DNA from: a virus
Reading direction: 5' to 3' (one strand)
Length of the DNA stretch: 64,000 bases
IMG/VR virus record: IMGVR_UViG_3300009788_000006
Span: 1-64,000 of that record
The translations under genes and the position numbers were made by a program. Shown here in pieces: positions 4,901 to 62,695 of the stretch (its first letter is position 1; each line of letters starts with the position of its first letter). A model generated the notes under the pieces. That model ran no database searches. It was not told where the DNA came from and worked only from the letters and a program-made list of their open reading frames with translations.

Positions 4901-5809
4901 ATGACAGCAGCAAACACCGAAGGCTTTCAGTACAGCGGCAGTGGGGCCGCGCCGTTCACCCCGTACACCACCGATACCGGGGTGACCGTCTTCCCTGCTG
5001 GTGGGACGGCCCAGATTGACGGAGACCTGGTTCTGAGTGTGGGCGCAACGCTCAAGCCCGAGGGCTCGACCAACGGCATTGATTTCTCGAGCCTTGTGCC
5101 GGGCACCAACACCGACGGCAGCCTGATCAAAGCGGCGACCAACGGCAGCCGCATCCCGTTCTCGACGGCGGGCCAGCGCGGGATGGCCATCTTCATGGAC
5201 AACACCGCGACGTCGGGCACATTCACGGGGATAAGGCTCCGGAGCGGAGTGAATCCCTCCAGCGGCGCCAACTCGGTTGACAACTTGCTCTCGCAGGTCT
5301 CGGTCGAAAGCGGCAAGAATGCGACCACGGTCAACGTGTGTTTCTTTGAGCTGATCCCGAAGGGGACGAACACGATCACCACCGGCCGGGTCCTGCTGCT
5401 GAATGCCGACAGCGCCGCATCACAGACGATGACCACGCAGATCATCGCTCATCTTCGGGTGCATACCCGCGGCGATGAGACCATCACGAACGACGAGATG
5501 CTGCGCATCGAAAACGAGGCCGTCGGCGGCAACGGGCGGAAGCTGGATTCCTACATCCGCGTCATGGAAACCAACCTCAGCGGCGGAATCACCGGCGCGG
5601 ACTACCTCATCGACGGCGGGACTGGAACGTCGCTCCTTGGTACTGCGGTGCTGCGCCTCCCCGATGACGGGACTGTTGCCAACGACACCGACACCGGCAG
5701 CGCTACGGATCTTCAGTTCTCCGACTTCACCGGGTTTCTCACGGTCGTCGTGGGATCGGCAACTCGGTATATCCCATTGCTTACCAACAAGCCGAGCGAC
5801 CTAACCTAA
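4901..5809 (+). CDS. Probable capsid decoration or minor virion protein
   Basis: 302 residues, low in charge and rich in Gly, Thr, Ser and short beta strands, as in decoration or fibre-like virion proteins. The end (SDFTGFLTVVVGSATRYIPLLTN) resembles the terminal strand of domains in other phage structural proteins that finish 'VxVGGTxYYIPxx'. It starts after AAGGAG 12 bases downstream of the capsid gene. Role inferred from composition and position. Confidence 0.55.
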   Translation: MTAANTEGFQYSGSGAAPFTPYTTDTGVTVFPAGGTAQIDGDLVLSVGATLKPEGSTNGIDFSSLVPGTNTDGSLIKAATNGSRIPFSTAGQRGMAIFMDNTATSGTFTGIRLRSGVNPSSGANSVDNLLSQVSVESGKNATTVNVCFFELIPKGTNTITTGRVLLLNADSAASQTMTTQIIAHLRVHTRGDETITNDEMLRIENEAVGGNGRKLDSYIRVMETNLSGGITGADYLIDGGTGTSLLGTAVLRLPDDGTVANDTDTGSATDLQFSDFTGFLTVVVGSATRYIPLLTNKPSDLT

Positions 5810-48161: not shown

Positions 48162-48190
48162 ATCTTACACGACCCGCTTGCCTTTGTCAA
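48162..48190 (-). promoter_or_regulatory. Strong sigma70-type promoter of the replication operon
   Basis: TTGACA (48185-48190), 17 bases, TAAGAT (48162-48167) on the minus strand. The transcript leader to ATG 48119 is about 35-40 bases and includes a hairpin (48137-48153). Confidence 0.8.
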
Positions 48191-51534: not shown

Positions 51535-51825
51535 ATGAACGGGAAAACAATCACCTTACAAGAGCTCCGCGCTCTGGCATTGGAGCGGGATTACGTCCTC
51601 AAGTCGCTGCCGCCGACGGTGCTCGCGACACGCGACGCGGTCCTCGCCGGAGCATGCACAGCCTCAAAGCTGGCGGCGAGCGCCGGCATCCTTCGCAGTA
51701 CCGCGTCGGAGCGGCTGCGGGCGGCAAAGCGCCTCGGAGTGCTCGACGCCGTCAAGCCACCGGGGCACGAAGAGATGATCTACATGGAGCCGCGGCAGAC
51801 ACCAGAAAGGGACGAAAAATGCTAA
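51535..51825 (+). CDS. Helix-turn-helix regulator, probably leaderless
   Basis: 96 residues from ATG 51535. TRDAVLAGACTASKLAASAGILRSTASERLRAAKRLGVLDAVKPPGHEEMIYM is a winged-helix-like unit. The promoter ends seven bases upstream, leaving no ribosome site. An in-frame ATG at 51496 lies inside the promoter. First gene of a nine-gene plus-strand operon; probably its regulator. Confidence 0.7.
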   Translation: MNGKTITLQELRALALERDYVLKSLPPTVLATRDAVLAGACTASKLAASAGILRSTASERLRAAKRLGVLDAVKPPGHEEMIYMEPRQTPERDEKC

Positions 51826-55287: not shown

Positions 55288-55610
55288 TCAAGCTCAACCT
55301 GAATTCGGAATACGCTTCGGCCCGTCTTGCCCTGATGGCCTTGCGCGTCGAACTCGAACGCGTTGCCCTGCTGGAGTTCGACCCCGGCGCCGTTCCCGGG
55401 TCAGTGCTGGTCGACTTCAACCGCCACTGGCCGGATGGTTGGTATTGGGACACAGAGGGGCTCTGGGATGAAGATGACAAGGGGAACACCAGCCTTGAGC
55501 GCGGCCGTCTCTACGACACCCAGGATTGGTTTCTCGTGGACGATGACGGGGCCGAGGAGGAGCTAAGCAGTTTTATTCAGCGGTTCATTGAAGGGCAGGG
55601 GACCGACTGA
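55284..55610 (+). CDS. Hypothetical protein, acidic C-terminus
   Basis: 108 residues, ATG 55284 in ATGA overlap with the previous gene. Helical start (NSEYASARLALMALRVELERVALLEF), then an aromatic and acidic part (NRHWPDGWYWDTEGLWDEDDKGN...DWFLVDDDGAEEE). Last gene of the plus-strand operon; it ends 11 bases before a convergent gene with no evident terminator. Confidence 0.5.
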   Translation: MIKLNLNSEYASARLALMALRVELERVALLEFDPGAVPGSVLVDFNRHWPDGWYWDTEGLWDEDDKGNTSLERGRLYDTQDWFLVDDDGAEEELSSFIQRFIEGQGTD

Positions 55611-55621
55611 TCGATAGGTGC

Positions 55622-55849
55622 TCACAACCCGATGCCGAGGGGCGCGTCCTCGTCGCAGTCCTCGCAGACCTCTTCCAAGGTGACGAGGCCGCGGAACAGG
55701 CCGCCGCGGTCGGTCGTCTTGTAGCACTGCGGGCACCATCGGGCGGGGCGCCGCATCGACTGGGACAGCGGCACGAGGGCTGCGCGGTACAGCCAGATGA
55801 AGCCGAGTGCCATCATCAGGGTGCCGATCCAGATTCCGGCGGTGGTCAT
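55622..55849 (-). CDS. Membrane-anchored zinc-ribbon protein
   Basis: 75 residues. Residues 3-25 form a transmembrane segment (AGIWIGTLMMALGFIWLYRAALV); the rest has WCPQCYKTTDRGGLFRGLVTLEEVCEDCDED, a C-x2-C...C-x2-C ribbon. ATGA overlap with the gene upstream. Unknown role at the membrane. Confidence 0.55.
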   Translation of the reverse strand: MTTAGIWIGTLMMALGFIWLYRAALVPLSQSMRRPARWCPQCYKTTDRGGLFRGLVTLEEVCEDCDEDAPLGIGL

Positions 55850-56529
55850 GATTCACCGCCGCGCAGAACCTTAGCGGCGCCAGGCCCGCCAGCGGCCAGC
55901 GTGCGAAGCTTGCCGCGCGCGGGCACGGAGTACACCCGCCAGCCATCAGGCCAGCGGTGCTTGCGCGCCTCGCCCCATTCCCTGGCCTCGTCTTGAGACA
56001 GAAAGACGCGGTGCGTGTCCCACCATTCGACGATGCTCTCGGAATCGGTCTCGACGAGCTCGTGGTATCCCAGTGGGGTAGGATCGTCATTGGGCTCGTC
56101 CTCCCACACGTAATACTCTCCGTCGTAAACAACGCCAGGGGGGATGTATGCCAGAAACCACCGCCGGGTCTGCAACAACGCCAGCGGCTCATCGGTGGCG
56201 GTCCTTGCTCGCTCGTGATCGCGCTGGGATTCGTAGATCGCCGGGTGGTATTCGATCATCTTTTCCGGTCCGCAGTGGCTGGTGCGGCTCCAGGCGTCCT
56301 TGAGCGTGTAGATGCCGGCCGTGTCGAATCCAACATAGCCGCCACCGTTTGGGCCCCAGTACCATCCGTGTTCACTGCTCCAGATCCGCACCAGCTTCTC
56401 GCCGTGCTCGGCGAGGATCGACGGGCGGGCTCTTCCCTCGTCGTCCTGGCAGGTGTCGCCCTTGATCGTCTGATGAAGGATTCTGGTGTCGTCAGGCCAG
56501 GCGAGAGAGGTGGCGGGGTCGGCGCTCAT
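55846..56529 (-). CDS. Hypothetical protein, 227 residues
   Basis: Rich in Trp, Tyr and acidic residues (IWSSEHGWYWGPNGGGYVGFDTAGIYTLKDAWSRTSHCGPEKMIEYHPA ... RRWFLAYIPPGVVYDGEYYVWEDEPNDD). The middle resembles small DUFs that read 'GYxxxxxxAGxYTxxEAxxxxxH..PEKxxxxh'. Function unknown. ATGA junctions. Confidence 0.5.
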   Translation of the reverse strand: MSADPATSLAWPDDTRILHQTIKGDTCQDDEGRARPSILAEHGEKLVRIWSSEHGWYWGPNGGGYVGFDTAGIYTLKDAWSRTSHCGPEKMIEYHPAIYESQRDHERARTATDEPLALLQTRRWFLAYIPPGVVYDGEYYVWEDEPNDDPTPLGYHELVETDSESIVEWWDTHRVFLSQDEAREWGEARKHRWPDGWRVYSVPARGKLRTLAAGGPGAAKVLRGGES

Positions 56530-57008
56530 GGCTTGGCCCCCGGCAGGTCGTCAACCGACAGCACCAACGCGCGACAGAATACCTGGACGCCCGCCATCAA
56601 ATCGAAGTGGTGGCCGATGTCTCCGGGCGCGGTGATGAGCCAGGATTCCCGGGTCGGCTTCGCCCACCACCGGGCGGTGATCTTGACCGACCCGCCGAAG
56701 CGCGTTCGGACCCAATCTCTCACAGCGAGCTTGGTCGTTTCATCGTTCTCACCCGCGAGGCGGCCGGCCAATTCGGAGATCTCCGGGACCACACCGCCTC
56801 TGCCGATCATGAATACGGGGCGGGCGCCGCTACCGATGTCGTGACTGTCGACTCCGTAGACTCTGACGCTGTCATCCGAGACGATGACGAACAAGCCGGC
56901 ATCTTTCCACCTCTGCTGTTCTTCGGCCGATGGGCGGAGCGGGTACTGACGGCCGTCGAGCTCGGCGGCGGTGATGGCTGCGGTGTCGAGGGGTTCGGTG
57001 TCGCTCAT
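56526..57008 (-). CDS. Paralogue A of a repeated accessory protein
   Basis: 160 residues from ATG 57008. MSDTEPLDTAAITAAELDGR then QYPLRPSAEEQQRWKDAGLFVIVSDDSVRVYGVD... aligns along its length with the protein at 62219-62695 (shared: xxxITAAxxAAxLDGxxYPxxPSxxxxxxWKxAxLFVI, xxIYGVD, ARxxVKIxxxW, ESWLITAxGxxGxxFxxMxxGxxFCRxLVLxVxxxPA). No function known. The two genes probably arose by duplication or repeated acquisition. Confidence 0.55.
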   Translation of the reverse strand: MSDTEPLDTAAITAAELDGRQYPLRPSAEEQQRWKDAGLFVIVSDDSVRVYGVDSHDIGSGARPVFMIGRGGVVPEISELAGRLAGENDETTKLAVRDWVRTRFGGSVKITARWWAKPTRESWLITAPGDIGHHFDLMAGVQVFCRALVLSVDDLPGAKP

Positions 57009-57316
57009 GACGCCACCATAAACTGCTGGACGCACCACCCCATGGCGAGGATAAGAAGCGGATACCATATCGAGTGTAGCGTCGCCTTGATGATTGATTC
57101 CCACAGGTCGCTGCCCTCCGGCGTGTCGATGTATTGGTGAGTGAGATACGCGATCACGATGGCCACGCCGATAGCTGCTGGCAGAGCGAGCGCGGGCAGA
57201 CCAAAGGTCGGGACCATGAACCAGCCCCACAGCTTCGACAGAACCCAACCGTTGAAGATGGCCTGAAACGGCGTGATCAGGATAGCAAAAAGGCACCCGG
57301 ATGCCGTCTTATTCAT
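57005..57316 (-). CDS. Small membrane protein, about three helices
   Basis: 103 residues with hydrophobic segments near 8-32, 38-62 and 80-100 (LFAILITPFQAIFNGWVLSKLWGWFMV; LPALALPAAIGVAIVIAYL; IWYPLLILAMGWCVQQFMV). ATGA overlaps on both sides. Could be a second holin-like or superinfection protein; not recognised. Confidence 0.5.
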   Translation of the reverse strand: MNKTASGCLFAILITPFQAIFNGWVLSKLWGWFMVPTFGLPALALPAAIGVAIVIAYLTHQYIDTPEGSDLWESIIKATLHSIWYPLLILAMGWCVQQFMVAS

Positions 57317-57612
57317 GTCGCCCTCCGGAGTATCTCTTCGAGAGTCGCAATCAGCTCCGCGCTGTCGTCCGCGCGCATATTGCCGGCGGTCTCAGGGTCA
57401 ACGAGCGCGGCCAGCCACAAAGGGCTGTCGCCGAGGTTGATTGCGGCCACCAAGGAAATGCCGAGTGCCTGAAGCTCTCCCTCTTCGTAGTTGTCAAAGC
57501 GGTTTTGGCGGAACCCTCGCCGCCCTTGGAGCTCTTCAGCCACCGCAACCGCTGCGCGCTCCGAGGCAGACTTGGCCCCGGCCGGGAACATCTCGTCGTG
57601 AATCCAACTCAT
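57313..57612 (-). CDS. Hypothetical protein, 99 residues
   Basis: Helical and acidic (SERAAVAVAEELQGRRGFRQNRFDNYEEGELQALGISLVAAINLGDSPLWLAALVDPE...). No motif. A GGAGGACGAC sequence precedes ATG 57612. Downstream of a strong stem-loop at 57646-57750. Confidence 0.5.
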   Translation of the reverse strand: MSWIHDEMFPAGAKSASERAAVAVAEELQGRRGFRQNRFDNYEEGELQALGISLVAAINLGDSPLWLAALVDPETAGNMRADDSAELIATLEEILRRAT

Positions 57613-57645
57613 GTCGTCCTCCGTTTTTGTCGTTCCGTTCTGTCG

Positions 57646-57750
57646 CTCACCACTACCAGAGGCCCCGGCTCGGTGACTCGGCGTGGGTCCTGGCGGGATT
57701 CTGGGGTCTGCGGGGGTCTTGGCAAGGCCGAGGCCCCTGATGGTGGTGAG
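57646..57750 (-). ncRNA. Extended stem-loop in an intergenic gap
   Basis: Ends CTCACCAC (57646-57653) and GTGGTGAG (57743-57750) pair perfectly, and on the minus strand the stem continues after one mismatch through about ten more pairs including two G-U, closing near 57665/57731. Fewer mismatches on the minus strand suggest that RNA is the functional form. It occupies nearly all the 150-base gap between two genes. No T-run, so a terminator is less likely. Confidence 0.45.
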
Positions 57751-57762
57751 CGGGTTGGTGAT

Positions 57763-58047
57763 TTACGCGCCGGCGAAGAATTCCTCGCGGGCCTTCTCCG
57801 TCATGAACTCTGGCCGAGCGAAGTGCTTTGGCTCGTTCTCATCAAGCCACGCCAGCGTCTCCGCTTTGGCGGTGAGCATCGCGCCCACCTTGAACTTTTC
57901 GTCATAGTCGCCGATGTCTTTGCCGAAGATCGCGACGAGCTCGGGGCAATTGCCGCCATTGATCATCGTTTCAATTACCTTCTCGGCCTCTTTGGGCCAG
58001 AGCCCCTTACTGGCCAGTTGCTCGGCAATCCAATCCCTGGTCTTCAT
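57763..58047 (-). CDS. Hypothetical protein, 94 residues
   Basis: From ATG 58047 in ATGA overlap. TRDWIAEQLASKGLWPKEAEKVIETMINGGNCPELVAIFGKDIGDYDEKFKVGAMLTAKAETLAWLDENEPKHFARPEFM: helical, fits small phage proteins with 'WixxxLxxxGLWPxEAxxVix' but no function is known to me. Confidence 0.55.
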   Translation of the reverse strand: MKTRDWIAEQLASKGLWPKEAEKVIETMINGGNCPELVAIFGKDIGDYDEKFKVGAMLTAKAETLAWLDENEPKHFARPEFMTEKAREEFFAGA

Positions 58048-58253
58048 TTTGAATTTCCTTTCCCGGTTGAATTGTCGACCACCACCGCCCTCAGCCCTTC
58101 GAGACGCTGGCGGATGTCTATGATCAGCCCCGTGTCGCCGGCCTCGATCGCGGCATCCAACACCGCGAATATCGGGGCGGCGGTTCTTCGGGCGGCGGCT
58201 TGGGCCTGGAGCAGCAGCCACGCAGCGTCGGATTCGGTCTGTCGGTCTTTCAT
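58044..58253 (-). CDS. Small helical protein
   Basis: 69 residues from ATG 58253. SDAAWLLLQAQAAARRTAAPIFAVLDAAIEAGDTGLIIDIRQRLEGLRAVVVD. ATGA overlaps on both sides; second gene after the 58.4-kb promoter. Unknown. Confidence 0.5.
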   Translation of the reverse strand: MKDRQTESDAAWLLLQAQAAARRTAAPIFAVLDAAIEAGDTGLIIDIRQRLEGLRAVVVDNSTGKGNSK

Positions 58254-58405
58254 AACTGCGCCTCGTCTTCGTCGTCGAGATCGGTCAGGAGGTCCCACGG
58301 CTCTAAATGGTACCCGCACTCTGGCGGGGGATCGGTGTCGAGGATTTTGTCCGCGAGCATCGCGGCGTAGTCGAGGGCGTCTTGTTCTGTGGCGGTGAGG
58401 ATCAT
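58250..58405 (-). CDS. First minus-strand gene from the operator-controlled promoter
   Basis: 51 residues from ATG 58405 with GGGAG eight bases upstream; a longer in-frame frame reaching 58510 runs through the promoter and is rejected. MILTATEQDALDYAAMLADK, then acidic (DDEDEAQL). Repressed operon leader gene; function unknown. Confidence 0.55.
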   Translation of the reverse strand: MILTATEQDALDYAAMLADKILDTDPPPECGYHLEPWDLLTDLDDEDEAQL

Positions 58406-58442
58406 GGCTTGTCTCCCTTGGTCGTTCACTTGATCTGAAGAC

Positions 58443-58471
58443 AGTATAGGCAACGGCTTGCCGCATGTCAA
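58443..58471 (-). promoter_or_regulatory. Strong operator-controlled minus-strand promoter
   Basis: TTGACA (58466-58471), 17 bases, TATACT (58443-58448). Operator copy 1 (58449-58462) fills the spacer and copy 2 (58472-58485) abuts the -35. Confidence 0.85.
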
Positions 58472-58519
58472 GGCAATTCCTTGCCCTATGTCGTTGGTCT
58501 TTTCGGGCAACGGGTTGCC
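58449..58519. promoter_or_regulatory. Three operators GGCAA-N4-TTGCC
   Basis: GGCAACGGCTTGCC (58449-58462), GGCAATTCCTTGCC (58472-58485) and GGCAACGGGTTGCC (58506-58519): one 14-base dyad in three copies, centres 23 and 34 bases apart, lying across two divergent promoters. The plan recalls the lambda right operator. Confidence 0.8.
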
Positions 58520-58543
58520 TTATGGGGCGAGGTGCGGTATTGT
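58515..58543 (+). promoter_or_regulatory. Leaderless-type plus-strand promoter at the operator region
   Basis: TTGCCT (58515-58520), 17 bases, TATTGT (58538-58543), six bases, ATG 58550. Operator copy 3 covers the -35. Confidence 0.7.
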
Positions 58544-58549
58544 CGACGG

Positions 58550-58882
58550 ATGAAGAACGCACGCAGCACGCTTACCGCCCCGATCTCCTTTCGAGCTCTC
58601 CCGGTAGAGGATCGCGATTACGATTACGCCCGTCGAGCGCTTGACGCAGCTCTCCCGGTTCGGCAGTGGGTCGTATCCTTGGCCTGGTGGCCCATCGGCA
58701 AAGTCCTGTCGTTCACAGATCCCTGGGTCGGCAGGATCTACAGGGTCAAGCGGGTCAACTCAGCGCGGTACGAGATAGTGCCGTGGTCTGAGCGCCTTGG
58801 CCGCCAACGCAAGAACGAAAACCCGCGCGCGGTGAACTCCATCCCGGGTTACTGGGAAACCGAATCCGGATACGACGGATGA
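58550..58882 (+). CDS. Hypothetical protein next to the operator region
   Basis: 110 residues from ATG 58550, six bases after the promoter -10, so probably leaderless. Basic, with RRALDAALPVRQWVVSLAWWPIGKVLSFTDPWVGRIYRVKRVNSARYEIVPWSERLG: a beta-rich part that may be a small barrel. ATGA overlap with the HTH gene suggests joint control. Confidence 0.6.
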   Translation: MKNARSTLTAPISFRALPVEDRDYDYARRALDAALPVRQWVVSLAWWPIGKVLSFTDPWVGRIYRVKRVNSARYEIVPWSERLGRQRKNENPRAVNSIPGYWETESGYDG

Positions 58883-59151
58883 AGAGCATCCGAGACATCC
58901 TCCGGCCGGCCGCCTTGGCCGAACTCAACCGCGACGGTCGCCGGCATCGTCTCGCCCGCATCTGGCGCGAGTACCACGGCCTCACCAACGAGGAGGCCGC
59001 AGCGATCTGCGGCGTGGAGCCCTACAGCTTCAGCCGCTTTGGGACCCACCGACAGCGACCGGAAGCGGGGCGGCTGGTGGCCAAGGGGATCGGGCTCGAC
59101 AGCAGCACCCGGCCGTGGAAGGCGGCGGTCGCTGGCACCATCCTAGCGTAG
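58879..59151 (+). CDS. Helix-turn-helix protein, candidate repressor
   Basis: 90 residues. NRDGRRHRLARIWREYHGLTNEEAAAICGVEPYSFSRFGTHRQRPEAGRLVAKGIGL has the layout of a helix-turn-helix (LTNEEAAAICGV, then the recognition helix EPYSFSRF). Being expressed from the operator region it is the leading candidate to bind the GGCAA-N4-TTGCC sites. Its stop codon lies inside a tRNA-like element. Confidence 0.6.
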   Translation: MKSIRDILRPAALAELNRDGRRHRLARIWREYHGLTNEEAAAICGVEPYSFSRFGTHRQRPEAGRLVAKGIGLDSSTRPWKAAVAGTILA

Positions 59152-59207
59152 CTCAGACGGCAGAGCGCTCGGAGAGGTCGCGGGTTCGAGCCCCGCCGGA
59201 CCTACCA
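59142..59207 (+). tRNA. Degenerate tRNA-like element (no anticodon arm)
   Basis: A good D-arm (GCTC/GAGC, 59151-59166), a perfect T-arm (GCGGG-TTCGAGC-CCCGC, 59180-59196), an acceptor 3' strand CGGACCT, discriminator A and encoded CCA (59205-59207). But only 13 bases lie between D- and T-arms and the 5' acceptor strand does not pair, so this is not a functional cloverleaf. A deleted tRNA, a tRNA mimic, or a remnant of an attachment site are possible. Confidence 0.6.
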
Positions 59208-59642
59208 GCAAGCGGGAGGGGCGCACCTCGGGCTCTTCCCCCGGTTAGGGGTTGCCTGAGACCACGCAGAGGGTGAGAGCCTTCGACTATTCCCGTTGAC
59301 CAGGGTGCGGGCCGTGTCGCTCGCTAACTGAGCACAGAGCCTGGATTTCCGCCGAACCTCTCGGCCGGTCAGGTGAAACCGGCATCCCCGCGACGCAAGA
59401 CGCAAGCGCGTCCCCGTCTCCTCTGCGTGACTTTGTCCGGCCACCGCGCGCCGACATCTTTGGGAGTATCTTTTCCCCGCCTGCCCAGTTGGTGACCCGG
59501 TGGGCTGGTTTCGCGTAACCCGGGATACCGGCTGTCCGGTGCGGCTGCACCCCTGCTCGGCCACCGAAGAGGCGGAGCGCTTGTGAGAAGCTCGAGGGGT
59601 GGGCGGCTGGATCTTCGCCGCCTGCTGTAATCATGGGATCAG
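59208..59642 (-). other. ORF-poor interval downstream of a promoter
   Basis: 435 bases without a convincing gene although two overlapping minus frames are open (59202-59564, 59287-59634). The promoter at 59643-59670 reads into it. Hairpins include GGCGGC/GCCGCC (near 59604-59624), ACCGG/CCGGT (near 59531) and GCCGG/CCGGC (near 59372). It could be a non-coding RNA or a poorly conserved leaderless gene starting at ATG 59634. Confidence 0.4.
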
Positions 59643-59670
59643 TCTATACGACTCCGCCCCGGCTTTGCAA
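59643..59670 (-). promoter_or_regulatory. Promoter of the TTGCAA-N16-TATAGA type, copy 1
   Basis: TTGCAA (59665-59670), 16 bases, TATAGA (59643-59648) on the minus strand, with CCGG on both sides of the -35. Same architecture as 60472-60499. An ATG lies eight bases downstream of the -10. Confidence 0.6.
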
Positions 59671-59751
59671 CCGGAGCGGCGACGATGATTACAGAGGCAG
59701 CCCGGAATCCAAGCGGGCGGATTTCATCCTACCGCGCCGAGGTAGTGCGGG

Positions 59752-60417
59752 TCAAGCGTGACCGGCGAAGCTAAGAATCTTCCGCATCTCCGCCGCCGAT
59801 TCCGGCCGGTTGCCCTGCTGACAGGAGACAGAATAAGCGTCGAGAACCCGCTTCTTCCCGTAGTCTATGTAGAGCGTTTCTGGATCGAACGCCATCGGCT
59901 GACTTTCTGGGGTCGCATCGCGGAATCCCAGGACGCGGCGCTCCTCTCTCTGGGCCGTGAGTTGAATCTCGTCGAAAGTCTCACGCGGCAACATTTCCCG
60001 AGCCTTCTCACAAAAACACCGAAAATACAAAGACCTCCGCTCACTTCGCTTCTTTTGGATCGCCTCATTCACCAGGGCGATAGAGGCTCCGATCTCTAAG
60101 GCTTTCTCGGGGTAGTCGACTTGCAGGCCGATCAACTTCCGGCGGATTGTCGTCAGCTTTCCAAGGTCGGCGCCGGTCATTTCTTCCTTGACGGACGGAA
60201 GCCACGTCGGGGCCTTTTTCGCCGCCATGAGCCGCCGGAGCTCCTTAGTTTGGTGGGCAGTCACCATCGCGGCGTGCTTCACTCTCGACCAGTGCGGGAA
60301 ATCAGCCGTGCCCTCGCCGTCATTCCCGGCACACCGCTCCTTCTTTCTAGCCTTGCAGGATGGACACTCGAAGCCAAGAGTTTGAATCTTGACGGCATAA
60401 CGACTATGTTCGGCCAC
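59752..60417 (-). CDS. Hypothetical protein with N-terminal zinc motif
   Basis: 221 residues. The start AEHSRYAVKIQTLGFECPSCKARKKERCAGNDGEGTADFPHWSRVKHA has C-x2-C...C...H, as in small phage and actinobacterial proteins with 'CPxCxAxxxxxCxxxxG...xHxxR'. The remainder is helical and basic. Its promoter (60472-60499) has the same plan as that at 59643. Confidence 0.55.
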   Translation of the reverse strand: MAEHSRYAVKIQTLGFECPSCKARKKERCAGNDGEGTADFPHWSRVKHAAMVTAHQTKELRRLMAAKKAPTWLPSVKEEMTGADLGKLTTIRRKLIGLQVDYPEKALEIGASIALVNEAIQKKRSERRSLYFRCFCEKAREMLPRETFDEIQLTAQREERRVLGFRDATPESQPMAFDPETLYIDYGKKRVLDAYSVSCQQGNRPESAAEMRKILSFAGHA

Positions 60418-60900: not shown

Positions 60901-61353
60901 CTATCTGAGGTTGCTGGCGGTGTCAAACACGGCCCCGCCGGTGTCACCCTTGTCTTCCCAGGTGGTAGGCTGATCTGGCGCGGTTGCGCCGGCTCTCTCC
61001 TTGCGCGCCTTCTCGGCCCGGTAGAGGAAGATCCCGGCGTCCACCCGCTTCTCGAGGGAACGGGGAAGGTCCTCGCCTGTCTCAGAGTCCCTGTAGAGCA
61101 TCGGGGTTGTAAAGCCGGGGTCGTTGCCAATTTCTTTGCTTCTGCTGTACAGGTAGATCCTGCCGTCGATGTTCGCCCGAGGGAACCCGGTCTGGGAATC
61201 GATAGAGATGGTAGCGGGGTCCGCGGTCTTGGCCAGCTTTTCGTCGAGGCGGTTGCCTAGCCATCGGTTCACAAGCTCGGTTACGCTGCAATCCTCGGCA
61301 GCAGCCTCCGTCTTCAGCCGGGCGTGTAGGTCGTCGTCAATCCGTGGCCGCAT
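60901..61353 (-). CDS. Ribbon-helix-helix-type protein with C-terminal extension
   Basis: 150 residues from ATG 61353 (AAGGAG upstream). MRPRIDDDLHARLKTEAAAE followed by DCSVTELVNRWLGNRLDEKL is an Arc/CopG-like RHH unit. The C-terminal 100 residues contain a beta part (ATISIDSQTGFPRANIDGRIYLYSRSKEIG). The leader holds TTGGT/ACCAA (61362-61380), a possible operator. Promoter TTGACA-N17-TACCAT upstream. Probably a regulator. Confidence 0.65.
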   Translation of the reverse strand: MRPRIDDDLHARLKTEAAAEDCSVTELVNRWLGNRLDEKLAKTADPATISIDSQTGFPRANIDGRIYLYSRSKEIGNDPGFTTPMLYRDSETGEDLPRSLEKRVDAGIFLYRAEKARKERAGATAPDQPTTWEDKGDTGGAVFDTASNLR

Positions 61354-62218: not shown

Positions 62219-62695
62219 CTAGGTGCCGGCCGGAAAGTTAGCGACGGTGAGCACCAGCCCGCGGCAGAAGATCTCACCGTCCTCCATGATGTTGAACGCT
62301 GCCCCGCCGACGCCTTCTGCCGTGATCAGCCAGGACTCGCCGGACGGTGGGCACCACGTCGACTCGATCTTGACGGCGTTGCGTCGAGCAGCAAGCCAAG
62401 GTTCTACCGCCGCCACCACCTGGTCGTCGCTTGCCCAGTCGTCGAGCTCGCCGCTTACCTCGCTCCAAGGCCGACAAGGTCCGGCACGTCCCAGCAAGAA
62501 AGATCCCGGGCCGCCCACCTCTTCGCGGTCGACTCCATAGATCTCGACGAGATCATCGGAGGCTCCGCAGATCACGAAGAGGTCGGCGCCTTTCCACGCC
62601 TCCTGGTCTTGTCGGGACGGATTGAAAGGGTACGCCGCTCCGTCGAGGGCGGCGGCCACGGTTGCGGCAGTGATAAGATTCTCAGTGTCGGGCAT
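62219..62695 (-). CDS. Paralogue B of a repeated accessory protein
   Basis: 158 residues; GAGGAG precedes ATG 62695. Aligns throughout with the protein at 56526-57008 (ITAATVAAALDGAAYPFNPS, WKGADLFVI, EIYGVDREE, ESWLITAEGVGGAAFNIMEDGEIFCRGLVLTVANFPA). Function unknown. Having two copies in one phage suggests a useful dose or diverged specificity. Confidence 0.55.
   Translation of the reverse strand: MPDTENLITAATVAAALDGAAYPFNPSRQDQEAWKGADLFVICGASDDLVEIYGVDREEVGGPGSFLLGRAGPCRPWSEVSGELDDWASDDQVVAAVEPWLAARRNAVKIESTWCPPSGESWLITAEGVGGAAFNIMEDGEIFCRGLVLTVANFPAGT

Follow-up and report, generated by a model that had tools for sequence, protein, structure and literature searches.

Three perfect copies of the dyad GGCAA-N4-TTGCC lie in a short control region of a tailed phage, and we read them, with a probability of roughly 0.58, as operators of a small phage-encoded dimeric repressor, most likely the protein encoded at 58879, which would tune leftward transcription as well as its own. 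"The window" denotes the whole stretch of 64,000 nt that was analysed, which covers most of the virus record (82,021 bp in total). The terminal 123 bases are the same at both ends of the record, and a near-identical contig (IMGVR_UViG_3300024265_000238) reads across the joint with only one copy of this repeat, matching 300/300 bases upstream and 299/300 downstream of the joint. The phage genome is therefore complete at 81,898 bp and circular or circularly permuted. It can be recognised as a tailed phage by its structural genes, a DnaB-like helicase and a terminase; among phage records, all matches to the terminase and the helicase were below 60% identity. Gene predictions (145 genes) came from a simple caller built for this analysis. 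The features concerned are as follows.

58443..58471, minus strand: minus promoter, TTGACA-N17-TATACT (-35 at 58466-58471, -10 at 58443-58448; 11/12 to consensus)
58449..58462, no strand: putative operator O1, GGCAACGGCTTGCC, within the spacer of the minus promoter and flush with its -10
58472..58485, no strand: putative operator O2, GGCAATTCCTTGCC, abutting the -35 of the minus promoter; O1 to O2, 23 bp start to start
58506..58519, no strand: putative operator O3, GGCAACGGGTTGCC, overlapping the -35 of the plus promoter by 5 bp; O2 to O3, 34 bp start to start
58515..58543, plus strand: plus promoter, TTGCCT-N17-TATTGT (-35 at 58515-58520, -10 at 58538-58543; 8/12 to consensus)
58550..58882, plus strand: 110-aa gene, no family above chance; its stop overlaps the next start (ATGA)
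58879..59151, plus strand: 90-aa putative Xre-like HTH protein, candidate repressor, with weak profile matches
58250..58405, minus strand: 51-aa gene, first of the leftward operon, with a GGGAGA ribosome-binding site
55622..58405, minus strand: leftward run of small genes, convergent with a rightward gene ending at 55610
71982..72010: second 11/12 promoter, TTGACA-N17-TATACT, without dyads; paralogue of the minus promoter

The first-pass annotation had described three such dyads at this place, and all three proved perfect. They are the only perfect copies in the 82,021-bp record and fall inside 71 bp, whereas 0.075 copies per genome were expected from 200 first-order Markov shuffles; the scan of the full genome suggested in the first-pass annotation thus gave no further perfect site. 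Three one-mismatch dyads (23319, 45182 and 77572) all lie within predicted genes. With up to two mismatches, the window held 49 matches versus 31 expected, and looser matches therefore carry little information. We also employed a motif-free test, accepting any 5-nt arms, loops of 0-8 nt and at least three same-arm dyads in a row no more than 80 bp apart. O1-O3 formed the only such cluster in the genome, and none arose in 60 shuffles. A stem-loop or terminator reading of the dyads was rejected: the dyads are not followed by T-runs, and O1 is part of a promoter spacer. At the sequence level, several similar operator-like dyads between divergent promoters were found, as in a lambda-type immunity switch. 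The best reading is that the clustered dyads serve as operators for a phage repressor, which would shut the leftward early operon and its own promoter.

The minus promoter, previously described as near-perfect, matches 11 of 12 consensus bases, and the placement of one dyad in its spacer and another against its -35 was upheld. Only two 11/12 promoters occur in the genome (0.15 expected), so that by consensus match the minus promoter is one of the phage's two strongest. The dyad assigned to the -35 of a divergent plus promoter is indeed there as O3, though this promoter reaches only 8/12 and would be weak by itself. ATG 58550 begins 6 nt after the plus-promoter -10, in agreement with the leaderless gene proposed earlier. 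Genome-wide, this spacing was found at 8 of the 145 predicted genes, versus 0-5 at each of the other spacings between 0 and 49 nt. Because of this enrichment, leaderless starts look common in the phage; the 58550 gene is probably leaderless. One report puts leaderless transcripts at nearly one-quarter of mycobacterial transcripts (PMC4633059).

The second 11/12 promoter resembles the minus promoter from the -35 up to the start codon, leader included (local score 34.5; next best place in the genome, 18.5). Its region, 71982-72052 (L033:7982-8052), carries the same ribosome-binding leader ahead of a 49-aa frame. Thus one copy of this promoter bears operators and the other copy none. In the genome scan for perfect and one-mismatch sites, no dyads were found at the promoters 48162, 61380 and 71982; the first of these (48162-48190) is likely the replication promoter.

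Leftward, the 51-aa gene starts about 30 nt downstream of the expected start site of the minus promoter. The four leftward genes nearest the promoter, this one included, had no Pfam match, and no Cro-like HTH was found among these four genes of the opposing arm. Rightward, the HTH gene sits in the plus-promoter operon, joined to 58550 by the ATGA overlap; each of the two genes scores best as coding in its own frame, and the coding score of 58550 is positive in its own frame only. Profile searches with the 58550 protein gave no family, toxin or DNA-binding signature and no relatives were found, leaving it an orphan; its fold model was poor, with no significant fold match. Elsewhere in the neighbourhood, 59145-59204 resembles a tRNA remnant with D and T arms and a 3' CCA and almost no anticodon arm, its 5' end overlapping the end of the HTH gene; a reading of this piece as an attachment site was dropped, as its 33-nt 3' part had no exact match in species genomes. 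About 550 bp (59205-59751) hold no convincing gene. A structured RNA in 59140-59640 was likewise discarded, since folding was no better than in shuffles on either strand, and Rfam matched nothing there except the tRNA-like piece. The predicted proteins at 56526-57104 and 62219-62695 look alike by eye, a possible duplication.

The HTH gene reported at 58879 is present, although its family assignment is weak. Its matches were to HTH_31 (E 0.0079, 16.9 bits, below the cutoff of 27), to the PHROG transcriptional repressor phrog_2328 (E 7e-4, a weak match) and to the MqsA-family HTH TIGR03830 (E 0.0016, 18.2 bits, below the cutoff of 61.8), and a search of the whole genome with PF01381 (HTH_3) returned nothing at E <=10. 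The single-sequence model is all-helical with low confidence (pLDDT 56); its best PDB matches were two restriction controller proteins, both non-significant (top C.Esp1396I, E 0.93). Blastn of 57000-60000 and a search with the 58879 protein gave no match in phage records. In species genomes, 592 stretches matched the peptide pattern and none was confirmed. The one IMG/VR match to 58879 (L004) was rejected because it lies in an unrelated 418-aa gene. No relatives keeping the 58550 and 58879 genes were found, and hence no conservation of dyads with these genes was seen; a terminase relative (L035, 41%) shares a few scattered proteins and has neither the dyads nor the 58879 gene. The proposal that 58879 encodes the repressor thus stays plausible, on weak profiles, a pLDDT of 56 and no found relatives. 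On these weak profile matches and the low-confidence model, the 58879 protein is likely the dyad binder.

The same dyad occurs in other phages, in two kinds of place. Scanning IMG/VR for two GGCAA-N4-TTGCC dyads 5-15 bp apart, we obtained 28 stretches, and most of these arrays look like origin iterons. As a side observation, the arrays in L005, L017, L021, L023, L027, L032 and others are mostly spaced 21-24 bp within replication-initiator genes, a shared iteron word across diverse phages. L012 is of another kind: its dyads at 5282 and 5307, with a one-mismatch copy at 5341, are flanked by an HTH repressor gene on one side and a small divergent gene on the other, and its longest ORF is probably over-extended. 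A second scan with gaps of 16-29 bp gave 13 stretches, 11 of them new; in three of the 11 (L126, L127 and L133) the dyads sit in the gap between divergent HTH genes of the Xre type. For L127 and L133 this intergenic placement rests on Pfam-supported genes, the longest-ORF rule putting the dyads inside overlapping frames. A tyrosine integrase was found in the records of L126, L127 and L133 but not L012 (3/4), and an M78 peptidase gene in those of L127 and L133, with none found in L126. A BLASTP comparison, made for L012 only, showed no similarity between its regulators and 58879, and the L012 repressor had no match in phage records.

Promoter geometry was then compared by searching for TAnnnT starting 0-3 nt after a dyad in the window and in 39 loci with 103 dyads. 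The minus promoter of the window, L126, L127 and L133 have a candidate -35 at a distance of 17-18 bp, which matches 6, 3, 5 and 5 of the 6 consensus bases, respectively. At the other loci with TAnnnT the -35 matches no more than 3/6, and that of L126 is no better than these. In L126, L127 and L133 the spacer dyad lies one base from the -10, a start codon follows 6-7 nt further, and the gene is a small HTH gene. Searched in IMG/VR by itself, the spacer-operator promoter pattern was found in three stretches (L117-L119), versus about one expected by a rough estimate; in L117, as judged by eye only, an HTH reading frame may lie on the opposite side. The dyads at the divergent HTH genes of L012, L126, L127 and L133 well support, as independent sequence cases, a repressor-operator geometry. 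The view that the arrangement is typical of such switches is thereby backed both by the shuffle statistics and by independent phage immunity regions using the same dyad.

Other explanations were weighed against this reading. The dyads could be operators bound by another factor, namely the 51535-51825 protein, the 60901-61353 protein, the 58550 protein or a host regulator, which we regard as possible though rather unlikely. The three phage proteins are all encoded in the same genome. The 51535-51825 protein is winged-HTH-like, with weak HTH matches; the start of its gene is of the leaderless type, 7 nt past a -10 that is paired with a perfect TTGACA -35. The 60901-61353 protein has weak matches to Arc-like ribbon-helix-helix repressors, and its gene lies behind a TTGACA-N17-TACCAT promoter. 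Neither the 51535 nor the 60901 promoter, however, has a perfect or one-mismatch dyad, and 58550, the only one of these candidate phage genes to adjoin the dyads, encodes a protein without a DNA-binding signature. In favour of another binder, the motif of the Pf4 repressor, SSRGGGCAAYADYTTCCTSGH, shows that a different phage repressor can read a distantly similar site; this Pf4r motif, similar to the dyad and not the same, was the closest one printed in the literature consulted (PMC8402870, as far as that source presents it), and among the top matches listed no phage operator with exactly GGCAA-N4-TTGCC was found.

A role as origin iterons, bound by a replication initiator as this dyad is in many other phages, would agree with the first IMG/VR scan, in which 27 of the 28 two-dyad stretches have the dyads inside the longest ORF and six of the 10 longest ORFs scanned belong to replication-initiation families (one, in L012, is a transcriptional repressor and three had no match). 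In contrast, the dyads here lie between genes, at uneven distances of 23 and 34 bp, and are tied in position to two promoters, whereas the iteron-like arrays mostly have 21-24 bp spacing and lie in ORFs; moreover, a profile of the initiators' N-terminal regions found no convincing relative in the phage (best E 0.04). We consider iterons very improbable. Least probable of all is a toxin-antitoxin-like pair, with the toxin encoded first by 58550 and its HTH partner 58879 autoregulating through the dyads. Such a pair would be consistent with the overlap of two small genes, the second encoding the HTH protein, and with the weak TIGR03830 match of 58879, but 58550 matches no toxin family and has a poor model without a significant fold match, and a pair of this type needs no operators on a divergent strong promoter.

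Under the preferred reading, repressor operators bound by the 58879 protein, we infer binding, the binder's identity, cooperativity and repression from the sites, the promoter sequences, the gene order and the dyads at other phages' regulators. With O1 occupied by a repressor dimer, the spacer of the strong minus promoter would be filled and polymerase kept out, and O2, 23 bp from O1, would give a second site for possible cooperative binding. Repressor bound at O3 would silence the plus promoter, which makes the repressor and its upstream partner 58550. Accumulating repressor would turn the early leftward genes off and then limit its own synthesis; such a circuit probably tunes early transcription. 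Against this reading, in the integrase-bearing contigs the promoter with the spacer dyad drives the HTH gene, whereas here it drives a 51-aa protein in which no HTH was found; the 8/12 match of the plus promoter and the weak HTH assignment also count against it.

The first-pass annotation had also raised a choice between two states, while noting that no integrase was visible. The latter observation extends to the complete circular genome, in which neither tyrosine (PF00589) nor serine (PF00239) recombinases were matched, nor a ParA-type partition ATPase (PF13614; the search covered the ParA type) nor the M78 peptidase (PF06114); integrase or ParA-type partition genes outside the window did not turn up. 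Neither a second operator region nor dyads at other early promoters were found, perfect sites being present only here and one-mismatch sites lying in genes. Repression at this locus would silence the run of small genes ending at 55622, with replication not obviously included. Because no recombinase, ParA or M78 was found, the operators occupy one locus only and the other strong promoters lack dyads, the choice between two states was not borne out: a two-state life cycle or lysogenic role is possible and unsupported, and nothing in the genome requires it. The complete genome yielded nothing that lysogeny would need, so the region is most likely an early promoter pair of the ordinary kind under repressor control. 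Two candidate precedents for an immunity repressor in a phage lacking an integrase (PMC10986025 and PMC5721134) were set aside, as both phages have serine integrases according to the parts of these sources consulted.

In lambda, three similar operators (OR1-OR3) lie between the divergent promoters PR and PRM, and the promoter of the regulator, leaderless-like, is weaker than the early promoter opposite it. The phage here likewise has three similar dyads between divergent promoters and a weaker, leaderless-like regulator promoter, but has no second operator region, no integrase and no two-domain CI, and no HTH was found in the Cro position. Staphylococcus phage Phi11, as described in PMC3991615, also has three operators between divergent promoters; it differs in being temperate, in its divergent cI and cro and in the 15-bp length of its operators. 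As an arrangement, then, three operators between divergent promoters are already known from lambda and Phi11. L126, L127, L133 and L012 are alike in having GGCAA-N4-TTGCC dyads at divergent HTH genes, with the spacer dyad beside the -10 in the first three; they differ in their recognisable Xre genes, in the integrases in the records of L126, L127 and L133 and in the M78 peptidase of L127 and L133. C.Esp1396I, according to PMC3758141, is a small HTH dimer that acts at three operators, which lie upstream of two sets of regulated genes; it is comparable in its small HTH protein and operator number but using GACT-based C-boxes and linked to a restriction system; because the 58879 model is weak, we claim no kinship.

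A broader interpretation, which we hold to be distinctly doubtful, is that GGCAA-N4-TTGCC is a recurrent operator word reached independently by unrelated phages and placed in the spacer against the -10, and that this integrase-less phage keeps a switch of the immunity type whose repressor belongs to an undescribed family. If true, it would mean that the phage controls superinfection or persists in a carrier state without integrating, with possible cross-talk with prophages using the same word. On the evidence at hand, the locus is a putative repressor-type operator cluster in a phage without sign of integration, tied to the regulator regions of other phages by its dyad and its promoter geometry. 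If the proposed binding is true, the locus would offer a compact switch open to testing and a means of finding regulator genes even when their products have diverged beyond recognition.
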